From: Bacillus sp. Cs-700
Lineage (GTDB): Bacteria; Bacillota; Bacilli; Bacillales; Guptibacillaceae
Reading direction: 5' to 3'
Assembly (NCBI RefSeq): GCF_011082085.1
Contig: NZ_CP041063.1
Coordinates: forward strand, 4,016,001 to 4,080,000
Length of the DNA: 64,000 bases
Shown in pieces: positions 10,526-49,763 of this stretch. The notes beneath the pieces are model-generated. The model was not told the DNA's origin. It did not search any database and saw nothing but the letters and a program-made list of their open reading frames with translations. A program made the translations under genes and the position numbers. The first letter of the stretch is position 1. Each line of letters begins with the position of its first letter.

Positions 10526-11098
10526 TTAGATTGTTTGTTCATTTTCCTCCACGGCATTGACAGCGTACTTTAAGGCGGAGGCGATAAGAATAAGAACAAA
10601 ACCGCTTATTATCGTATCAATATAGTTTAATGTTGAATATTGGATCGTAGCATTCGTGATTTTTAGCAATTCAAGCGTTCGAGATGTGATCTGTTCATCT
10701 ATGTAAGTTGATACCGTTCCTAATACGATGGTTATGACGCCAAGCTTCCAAATGATCGCTACGTTCTGGTGGAGAAAAAGGCTTTTCAAATATATATTTT
10801 TTAATAACTTCCGCATGAACCATAAAAATAGCATCATAAAGAGGACGCTAGTAGATATTGAAATAAACGATAAAATCAAAAAAGATTTTTCGTCATAAAG
10901 GTCTGGCTGATTTTGGAACGTTAGTTGAATATAACTGAAAATCGGTTCATAAGGACGGAAAGATTCCGCGAGTGCACTATCGGCAAACCAAATAAGTGAC
11001 ACGTGTTCTAGTGTTGTAAAAACAAATAGTAAACCTATGACATAAAACAGGATCATGCAAATTTTCGATAATAGATTAAACCCAAACTTCCATTTCAT
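10526..11098 (-). CDS. DUF2975 family membrane protein
   Basis: This 190-residue protein has four hydrophobic segments (about residues 10-32, 68-90, 110-128 and 155-178). Size, topology and its place directly before a YozG-like XRE gene fit DUF2975 proteins such as B. subtilis YoaS. In these pairs the membrane protein is thought to act with the regulator, but the mechanism is unknown. It starts with ATG after AAAAAAGGAG. The regulator gene begins 18 bases after its stop and is frameshifted, so the pair may no longer function together. Confidence 0.72.
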   Translation of the reverse strand: MKWKFGFNLLSKICMILFYVIGLLFVFTTLEHVSLIWFADSALAESFRPYEPIFSYIQLTFQNQPDLYDEKSFLILSFISISTSVLFMMLFLWFMRKLLKNIYLKSLFLHQNVAIIWKLGVITIVLGTVSTYIDEQITSRTLELLKITNATIQYSTLNYIDTIISGFVLILIASALKYAVNAVEENEQTI

Positions 11099-11270
11099 TC
11101 GTAAACTCCTTTTTTACTGAGATATTTGATTAACATTATTTTACTACAAAACATCCCCTGTTTCGATGCTTTTTTATTGATAAACAATAATTTTATATTG
11201 AATTAAATTATTTTTACTGATATCTTAATGTTAGGAAATATTGGAATTAACTATGGATGGAGGTCACAGC

Positions 11271-12455
11271 ATGGTGGGTTGGGACAGAAACGGTCTGGTA
11301 GATGCACTGCGAGGCTGGAGTTTATTTGGGATACTAATCGCAAATCTTTTAATCTTTCAGTATGGTATTTTCGGGAAAGATGAGATTTCTTTTTTTCAGT
11401 TATCATCTGTGGATTATGGTGGATATGTAGCGATTAAAGTTCTTATCGAAAACTCGTTTATGCCTATTTTTACGTTTTTATTTGGGTATTCATTGATTTT
11501 GATGAGGAACCGTTTGCGAGAAAAAAAGCGTCGCGTAAAGTGGCATCTTTTTCGAAGATTCCTCATTTTGATTTCATTCGGTGTGCTACATGCTACCTTC
11601 CTTTGGGAGGGAGACATTTTACTTCTTTATGGCATAATGGGCATGCTCCTTCTGTTTTTTATTAATCGAAAGCGAAAGACCATTCTTGTTTGGTGTGTGG
11701 TGCTGTTTTCAATCATAACCCTTATTAGTTTCGTAGGGGGAGAAGAAGAGGCGCTCATAAGTGAAGAAAAAATCGATGTTTATCTAAAGGATACGATGGA
11801 GATATATGGATCAGGCTCTTATGACATGATCAAACATCACCGCAATAACGTGGATCCTATGGAATTAAGTGAGGGCGAAGCGTTTTTCGTCGTCTTATTT
11901 ATGCCTTTTCTTATCCTTCCAATGATGCTTCTTGGTATGTATGCTGCGCATGTTGGCTGGCTTCATACAAACAGGGTTAAGCTTTTTCAATACCTATCGA
12001 TTATTTGTCTTCCGGTTGGTCTGTTCTTGAAAGCATCACTGTATCTATCAAAAGAAATCCATTGGCTGCCAGATATGAGCTTAATAGGTGGAAGTGTTTT
12101 GGCAATCGGCTATATCAGTTTGTTTAGCTATTTTTACAGTAAGTCCAATGCCCACCTTTTTAAGGGGTTTGAAAATTTAGGGAAACTCTCGTTAACAAAC
12201 TATATCCTTCAAACGGTCGTATGTACTTCCGTTTTCTATGGCTATGGATTTGGTTTGTTTGGGAAGATGGGCGTTATTCTTTCCATTCTATTTGGAATTG
12301 GACTTTTCACTCTTCAGGTTGTAGGCAGTACGTTCTTCTTGAAGCGATTTAGACAGGGGCCGCTTGAAAAGGTGATGCGGACGGTTGTTTACTTAGAAAA
12401 CCCTTTTCAAAACAGGAAAAAAAGTCAATTAAAAGATGAAATGAAAGTTAGTTAG
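11271..12455 (+). CDS. DUF418 (YeiB-like) membrane protein
   Basis: The 394-residue integral membrane protein has about nine to ten hydrophobic segments. The opening VDALRGWSLFGILIANLLIF, the arginine-rich loop after the second segment (MRNRLREKKRRVKWHLFRR) and the C-terminal block LSLTNYILQTVVC identify the DUF418/YeiB family, which is related to acyltransferase-3 membrane proteins. The role is not established. The frame is open from 11241, but the ATG at 11271 has GGAGG at proper spacing. PH-domain genes ydbS and ydbT follow closely and may be in the same transcript. Confidence 0.85.
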   Translation: MVGWDRNGLVDALRGWSLFGILIANLLIFQYGIFGKDEISFFQLSSVDYGGYVAIKVLIENSFMPIFTFLFGYSLILMRNRLREKKRRVKWHLFRRFLILISFGVLHATFLWEGDILLLYGIMGMLLLFFINRKRKTILVWCVVLFSIITLISFVGGEEEALISEEKIDVYLKDTMEIYGSGSYDMIKHHRNNVDPMELSEGEAFFVVLFMPFLILPMMLLGMYAAHVGWLHTNRVKLFQYLSIICLPVGLFLKASLYLSKEIHWLPDMSLIGGSVLAIGYISLFSYFYSKSNAHLFKGFENLGKLSLTNYILQTVVCTSVFYGYGFGLFGKMGVILSILFGIGLFTLQVVGSTFFLKRFRQGPLEKVMRTVVYLENPFQNRKKSQLKDEMKVS

Positions 12456-49060: not shown

Positions 49061-49131
49061 TTGTTAGAAGAAAAAAGACAATAAATCTCTTTTCCTCACA
49101 TATACTGCCTGTGAAAAGAGGTGGAAATGTC

Positions 49132-49731
49132 GTGGATGAAAAGCAATCATGTTCTCTTCCGAACTGTGCACAAACAAACGATCAGGCTCCTTTATTTCGA
49201 GCTGAAGCATATGATCCGATTGGGAGGAAATTCAAAGAAATTAACCTTGAGGACTATAAAGGAAAATGGGTGATCTTATTTTTCTATTCAAGTGATTTTA
49301 CCTTTGTTTGACCGACAGAACTGGCAGCGGTCGCTGCTATTTATCCAGAGCTTCAAGCTATGAATACTGTAGTACTCGGAATTAGTACAGATAGCGTGTA
49401 TGCCCATAAAGTTTTTACCGAGGTTTCCCCAGCCGCCTCTAAAGTGAACTATCCTCTTGTTAGTGATCGGAATCATCGGATTAGCCGAGACTACCGCGTG
49501 TTAAATGAAGAAGCGGGGGCGACGTATCGAGGAACAGTTATTATAAACCCAGATGGCGTAATCGTTTCAAAGATGATGTATCCTGTCGAGGTGGGAAGAA
49601 ACGCTTATGAAATTCTTCGTCTCATGCAAGCACTTCAATATAATGTAAAAACGGGAGAAGCAGTGCCGGCAAATTGGGTACCGGGTCAACCAGGAATTGT
49701 TCGAAGGTCAAAGTATATTGGAAGGATGTGA
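49132..49731 (+). CDS. Peroxiredoxin (AhpC/TSA) with in-frame UGA at the peroxidatic position: candidate selenoprotein
   Basis: The frame encodes a complete AhpC/TSA-type peroxiredoxin of 199 residues if the TGA at 49309-49311 is read as an amino acid. The UGA is codon 60, in DFTFV-U-PTEL, exactly where the family has the peroxidatic Cys (FVCPTE). The following 140 codons are open and well conserved ([37 protein letters not shown]). The late resolving Cys motif CPANW reads VPANW. Cys7 and Cys12 occur in an N-terminal extension. The start is GTG at 49132 behind AGAGGTGG. A SECIS-like hairpin starts ten bases after the UGA. The alternative is a pseudogene caused by a Cys-to-stop mutation; intact flanks and the hairpin speak against that. 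The genome's Sec machinery is not in this window. Confidence 0.75.
49321..49348 (+). promoter_or_regulatory. SECIS-like hairpin after the UGA codon
   Basis: GCAGC (49324-49328), loop GGTC (49329-49332) and GCTGC (49333-49337) form an exact hairpin, with a further CTG/CAG pairing outside (49321-49323 with 49346-49348). The GGU in the apical loop is the known SelB contact in bacterial SECIS elements. It lies 17 bases after the UGA, against 18 in my recollection of E. coli fdhF. Confidence 0.65.
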
Positions 49732-49763
49732 GAGCTTCGGAATCATTCCGCTGCTCTTTTTTT
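49731..49763 (+). terminator. Intrinsic terminator
   Basis: AGAGC and CGGAAT pair with ATTCCG and GCTCT around a small internal mismatch, followed by seven T. Confidence 0.8.

Follow-up and report, generated by a model that had tools for sequence, protein, structure and literature searches.

The window analysed here is a stretch of 64,000 nucleotides from the genome of Bacillus sp. Cs-700 (NZ_CP041063.1, positions 4,016,001 to 4,080,000). Its positions 49132-49731 hold, as confirmed here, a complete peroxiredoxin frame of the AhpC/TSA type with one TGA at the position of the peroxidatic cysteine. This TGA (49309-49311, context DFTFV-TGA-PTEL) is the one internal stop of the frame, which ends in a TGA of its own. 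The features of the locus, with selenocysteine (Sec, U) as the predicted reading of the internal TGA, are as follows.

49114-49124, + strand: ribosome-binding-site-like stretch AAAAGAGGTGG ahead of the GTG start at 49132, from sequence reading
49132-49731, + strand: predicted Sec-peroxiredoxin gene of the AhpC/TSA type; GTG start at 49132, 199 residues including Sec60, own stop TGA at 49729-49731
49165-49167, + strand: Cys12 codon of LPNCAQT, a possible N-terminal resolving Cys; the aligned column is Cys in 61/74 Sec homologues
49309-49311, + strand: in-frame TGA, predicted Sec codon replacing the peroxidatic Cys (TFV-U-P), from frame reading and homologue alignment
49324-49337, + strand: SECIS-type hairpin GCAGCG-GU-CGCUGC of six pairs; apical GU at 49330-49331, nucleotides 22-23 from the U of the UGA
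49738-49750, + strand: terminator-like hairpin with a T tail 3' of the gene, from a consensus scan alone (1 found versus 0.7 expected)

Part of the ribosome-binding-site-like stretch, AAAAGAGGTG, is present in 13/13 genus leaders compared. The leader at 49100-49124 reads ATATACTGCC...GAAAAGAGGTGG; among the 13 genus sequences, ATATACTGCC occurs in eight, ATATACTGCT in three and neither in two. A promoter scan returned a single site, on the opposite strand. No conserved gene neighbourhood was found: besides the gene and its own N-terminal half, reading-frame families, some of which are probably antisense frames, recur in at most 19 of 70 loci.

When the TGA is translated as a residue, the frame matches Pfam AhpC-TSA at 1e-35 (122.8 bits, gathering cut-off 26), and the read-through protein also matches 1-cysPrx_C (8.7e-8) and Redoxin. 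Solved peroxiredoxins align with the window protein, 4fh8 being the best (6.9e-42), and the Cys of their FTFVC motif falls on the TGA column in the two alignments inspected. The first-pass annotation had described a full AhpC/TSA peroxiredoxin with a single TGA precisely at the catalytic Cys, and is borne out on both points.

The internal TGA is a shared character of the relatives. It stands at the same place in 14/14 genus genomes and 15/15 family genomes, and among the best 80 of 189 relatives in a contig scan the codon at the site is TGA in 69 and TGT or TGC in 11; of the two patterns used in the scan, one was designed for Cys, so that Cys forms had the better chance of being picked up. Within these best 80 of 189, the nearest named loci belong to Pseudalkalibacillus (92 and 88% identity), and the Cys homologues reach an identity of only 40-47%. 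Alignment of homologues, proposed earlier as a check, thus gave TGA and not Cys in the close relatives. A sequencing error was considered as the source of the TGA and rejected, since the same TGA is found in many genomes. Most Sec loci belong to Bacillaceae and their kin within Bacillota (Pseudalkalibacillus, Neobacillus, Rossellomorea, Mesobacillus, Fictibacillus, Salipaludibacillus and others), and further ones come from Ammoniphilus (Paenibacillaceae), Melghirimyces (Thermoactinomycetaceae), two Pelotomaculum, one Clostridium and one member of the Desulfobacterales.

Removal of duplicates between genus genomes and scan loci reduced 80 TGA rows to 71 distinct ones, and three added later gave the 74 Sec rows counted below. 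Locus L118, which has the TGA, is absent from this set; L029 (differing N-terminal frame), L036, L115 and L121 (apparent C-terminal breaks) and L093 (early frame end) are included. Three of the loci have peculiarities of their own. In L036, from the genus genome G006, the frame is broken downstream of the TGA at a tandem GTGA, yet selA is kept; either the gene was lost recently or the assembly is wrong at this point. In L029 (G011) the N-terminal codons before PAPLF are out of frame with those of the relatives, and the genome as assembled therefore has no Cys12. The Desulfobacterales Sec homologue, L120, begins with a hydrophobic segment that looks by eye like a signal peptide, and may for this reason be exported.

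The codons 3' of the TGA are under purifying selection. Of 12 genus comparisons, 10 were computable behind the TGA, with dN/dS values of 0.030-0.093, and 7 before it, with values of 0.072-0.208; in the remaining comparisons synonymous sites were saturated. The earlier description of the downstream codons as intact and conserved therefore holds, and a situation in which relatives carry Cys and the downstream sequence has decayed was not seen, since the relatives carry TGA and the sequence is under selection. These data also bear on the idea that the gene is a pseudogene, an ordinary Cys peroxiredoxin hit by a nonsense mutation. Such an origin would account for the in-frame stop, and G006 shows that a truly broken frame occurs in a relative, but it is scarcely credible in view of the low downstream dN/dS, the presence of the TGA throughout the genus and in most of the best-matching loci, and the distance of the Cys homologues.

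The genome, a single contig of 4,297,839 bases, carries tRNA-Sec, selA, selB and selD together at 357.7-365.4 kb, the four genes for which a search had been suggested. The tRNA-Sec scores 59.4 bits with Rfam (cut-off 47) and is called tRNA-SeC with anticodon tca by ARAGORN. SelB (359 bits, cut-off 242) has EF-Tu-like and SelB winged-helix domains, and in a comparison with solved structures it matched SelB and EF-Tu chains, over the GTPase half only. SelA scores 563.6 bits and SelD 410.6 bits. In 14 named control genomes the cut-offs were passed by tRNA-Sec in five, selB in two, selA in one and selD in two, so that a tRNA-Sec match alone is not decisive; judged by their matches, tRNA-Sec, selA, selB and selD are jointly decisive for the Sec machinery.

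The selD gene carries an in-frame TGA of its own:

L022, about 10622-11671, - strand: selD with in-frame TGA

The TGA lies in the context KGG-TGA-GCK and is present in 10/10 sel loci read (10 genomes). By eye, selD of this genome has a hairpin-forming GACGCAAGTTTTGCGTC, which lies some 15 nt farther away from the UGA than does the hairpin of the peroxiredoxin, and stretches similar to GACGCAAGTTTTGCGTC are visible in the other sel loci read. A homologue of the formate dehydrogenase alpha subunit is over its cut-off and has no in-frame stop, and is therefore not read as Sec-FdhA. SelD and the peroxiredoxin are the only Sec genes identified among the candidates looked at in this genome.

selB and selD are separated by a PhnD/PhnE/PhnC-like ABC transporter (L022 8185-10586; G000:C1 about 360.2-362.6 kb). 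It occupies the same place in the three other genus genomes read (G001, G002, G006) and in G017 from another family and is missing there in G042, G018 and G023; in G125 and G047, selB lies outside the stretch read, which leaves the position of the transporter undecided. This transporter is a candidate importer of a selenium compound.

The distributions of the gene and of the Sec trait were compared over 120 genomes sampled evenly from the order, with the gene taken at E <= 1e-50 and selA at E <= 1e-80; the two counts were made on the same genome handles and are taken as one sample. The gene is present in 17/120 genomes, each with a single TGA, and selA in 62/120. All 17 gene-bearing genomes are selA-positive (17/17) and the gene occurs in 0/58 selA-negative genomes, so that neither a Sec nor a Cys form is present in the latter at E <= 1e-50. 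The link between gene and selA has a Fisher p of 3.9e-6, or 4.1e-4 when collapsed to genera, both values being too small because the genomes are related. Within the genus, selA is found in 14/14 genomes, G006 included. One side remark of the first-pass annotation fails here, namely that Sec in place of this Cys is unusual in aerobic spore formers: the Sec trait is not uncommon in the relatives, selA being present in about half of this order sample.

The UGA is followed by a SECIS-type hairpin, GCAGCG-GU-CGCUGC, which begins 16 nt from its U. Over 70 distinct sequences and six pairs, 99.5% of the cells hold standard pairs. Two of the pairs covary, 18-27 (A-U in 52, G-C in 14 and G-U in 4 sequences) and 21-24 (G-C in 59, A-U in 9 and C-G in 2), and both are made of third codon positions. 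Together they contain 136/140 Watson-Crick cells, compared with a mean of 96 and a maximum of 112 in 20,000 shuffles, figures that are inflated by the relatedness of the sequences. When the hairpin is slid by 1 or 2 positions, 20-33% of the cells are paired; slides of +/-3 leave 73-81% paired and form a weak control, since the arms are built of GCN codons. The apical GU, the element of bacterial SECIS hairpins that SelB contacts, is present in 74/74 Sec rows. A plain fold gives the hairpin at -10.3 kcal/mol, with a z-score of -1.03 over 42 nt, which is not unusual, and of -2.86 over the 27-nt core.

The codons that encode the hairpin are constrained at their wobble positions. The mean wobble entropy of codons +5 to +8 (four sites) is 0.74 bits, compared with 1.60 bits at ten nearby fourfold sites, the lowest of which (0.77) is the adjoining codon +9, with its first two bases at the foot of the stem. 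All 74 Sec rows, and none of the 11 Cys rows, carry A-A-V-A as residues +5 to +8, and 0/11 Cys homologues have more than two of the six hairpin pairs. This constraint shows what appears to be a protein motif, A-A-V-A, dictated by the SECIS hairpin.

As in the E. coli fdhF SECIS, the hairpin lies directly 3' of the UGA and exposes an apical GU at nucleotides 22-23. The window's six-pair stem differs from that type in that no bulged U is seen, and an Rfam search of the UGA region gave no SECIS match. A literature search for SelB-SECIS GGUC loops returned no paper that was relevant by title.

Two further explanations of the UGA can be judged against these results. The ORF listing contains a 123-codon frame from ATG 49360, behind the TGA, and the locus could accordingly yield two products, a short N-terminal peptide that stops at the TGA and, from a restart at this ATG, a second protein. 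The restart Met is present in only 16/74 Sec rows, the catalytic residue would be lost, and the covarying hairpin and the link to selA would be left unexplained, so that this arrangement has a negligible probability. UGA leaks in Bacillus-type cells, and general read-through in which Trp or Cys, and not Sec, is inserted is a second conceivable source of the full-length protein. It is very improbable: the gene itself ends in TGA, as do, the window included, 19/71 Sec rows counted, which means that UGA still stops translation, and the gene is found only with selA in the order sample and has the SECIS-type hairpin 3' of its UGA. An organism-wide reassignment of UGA was rejected on the same terminal TGA codons of the window gene and the 19/71 rows.

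The reading preferred here, and held with high confidence, is that the UGA at 49309-49311 is decoded as Sec60 under the direction of the hairpin and gives a peroxiredoxin of the TxxU type that is probably reduced by an outside thiol. The earlier proposal of a probable selenoprotein is hence supported by the machinery and the conservation of the TGA, and the covarying hairpin adds evidence that was not available to it. From what the sequence itself shows (the gene, the conserved UGA, the machinery, the covarying hairpin, the selection and the absent resolving Cys) we infer that Sec is in fact inserted, that the enzyme acts as a peroxidase and what kind of thiol reduces it, along the following route. 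SelA would make Sec-tRNA with selenophosphate supplied by SelD; SelB and Sec-tRNA would bind the hairpin just 3' of the UGA, which would be read as Sec60. Sec60, placed in a TxxU-type peroxiredoxin active site, would then attack peroxides, and its selenolate would become a selenenic acid to be reduced by an outside thiol, either a small thiol or a thioredoxin-like protein. Cys12 would perhaps be an optional helper in this reduction, in the species that have it. A selenoperoxidase cycle that passes through a selenenic acid and its reduction by a thiol is described in the available part of PMC8533274.

The call for an outside thiol comes from the C-terminal resolving-Cys column, which is Cys in 10/11 Cys homologues and in 0/73 Sec homologues with a residue there, 72 of them clean and one (L121, Gly) from an end that appears to be frame-shifted. 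At this position the window protein has Val (GEAVPANW, compared with VCPANW of typical 2-Cys enzymes). Lacking a Cys there, the enzyme probably depends on a thiol from elsewhere to reduce its oxidised selenium. The N-terminal Cys12 column is Cys in most Sec homologues (61/74, as listed above); seven of the 74 Sec rows, L029 and L115 with apparent frame breaks among them, contain no further Cys between 54 residues upstream and the end, so Cys12 is not a general resolving residue. The best reading of the window protein is that of a putative 1-Sec, thiol-dependent peroxiredoxin.

Around the predicted Sec, the Thr of TxxU (-3) is present in 74/74 Sec rows. The Pro of PxxxTxxC/U is present in 22/74 Sec rows versus 11/11 Cys rows, and the window has Ser53 in its place. 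In the portion available of PMC13188914, PxxxTxxU is described as highly conserved in Sec peroxiredoxins, and the clade departs from the motif as given there. Because the active-site Pro is often lost, Sec insertion is the more certain part of the reading and peroxidase activity the less certain one.

A tree was built from 71 Sec rows, 11 Cys rows and four AhpC paralogues, 86 rows in all. The Sec rows come together there as a single group (99/95; 98% of 200 bootstrap trees), separate from the other two sets. The tree leaves out L036, L115 and L121 with their apparent frame breaks and includes four of five paralogues (L052 is missing); the tree program warns of long branches, among them L120, L131 and L123. 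The gene might simply be an ordinary PrxU gene, of the family NCBIfam NF040737. Among NCBIfam models this one fits the window protein best, at 166.3 bits, and the Cys homologue L131, which likewise has no resolving Cys, passes it (301.1). The score of the window protein is nevertheless far below the curated cut-off of 270, six other Sec homologues reach 144.6-194.7, and one of these six, L102, fits AhpC better. Likewise, the Pro of PxxxTxxU that is highly conserved according to the accessible text of PMC13188914 is Ser in the window, and in the tree of Sec, Cys and AhpC rows the Sec rows are one group apart from L131 (99/95). Plain PrxU membership is thus unlikely, if less so than the other alternatives considered here.

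A wider proposal, put forward tentatively and favoured less than not, concerns the clade as a whole. It would be obligately selenium-dependent and mainly of Bacillota, largely aerobic ones, with neither a resolving Cys nor a Cys-containing orthologue and with the active-site Pro often lost; its members would act as 1-Sec, glutathione-peroxidase-like enzymes on a bacterial thiol, their A-A-V-A would be dictated by the hairpin, and together with SelD they would be a chief reason why the Sec machinery is kept.

Genes of this kind are easily misannotated as pseudogenes or as truncated genes. In the present case a single selenoprotein stays in its Sec form across many spore-formers, most of them aerobic, and lacks a close Cys counterpart among the loci seen, which makes it a good test case for why selenium is used over sulfur, and its Sec and Cys versions are open to direct comparison. 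The hairpin, moreover, shows that an RNA signal can dictate protein sequence beside an active site.

Reports on Sec peroxiredoxins form the background to this variant. The family 'Peroxiredoxin (Prx), TxxU' is listed as a bacterial selenoprotein family in the sections available of PMC9312934 and PMC13188914, and what is accessible of PMC5029168 counts a Prx TxxU selenoprotein in 78 organisms. The available part of PMC1794560 gives 12 Prx selenoproteins and, for Firmicutes/Bacillales, 3 selenoproteins of 3 families, and that of PMC7409299 reports PrxU as upregulated in Sulfobacillus. A Bacillales clade, a missing resolving Cys or an A-A-V-A signature is not described in the parts available of PMC9312934, PMC13188914 and PMC5029168, and the main text of PMC13188914 has no word beginning bacillus, Bacillota or Bacillaceae. 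A literature search of partial coverage found no Sec-peroxiredoxin clade in Bacillaceae.

Sec peroxiredoxins are already known, and the window protein is a well-supported variant of them. Some points appear fresh on the sequence evidence: a Sec-only group among the loci seen, mostly from spore-formers, the absence of a resolving Cys together with Sec, the frequent loss of the Pro and a motif that would be dictated by the SECIS. The window protein shares its domain family with the typical 2-Cys AhpC (TIGR03137) encoded by the paralogue at G000:C1:80605-81123, with about 40% identity; in AhpC both catalytic positions are Cys (L047), whereas the window protein has the predicted Sec and no C-terminal resolving Cys. 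With the Prx TxxU family, as far as the available text of the reviews describes it, it has in common the peroxiredoxin domain, the TxxU motif and the Sec machinery in the genome, and it differs by Ser in place of the Pro of PxxxTxxU. PrxU of Eubacterium acidaminophilum is a Sec peroxiredoxin (Sohling et al., 2001, as cited in the parts available of PMC9312934, PMC13188914 and PMC8533274), and like this enzyme, as described there, the window protein would carry Sec at the peroxidatic position. It is set apart from PrxU by model score (166 bits versus the NF040737 cut-off of 270); by description, loci of the window type differ from PrxU in coming mostly from Bacillaceae-type spore-formers, among the best 80 of 189, and in bearing the signature U-PTELAAVA.
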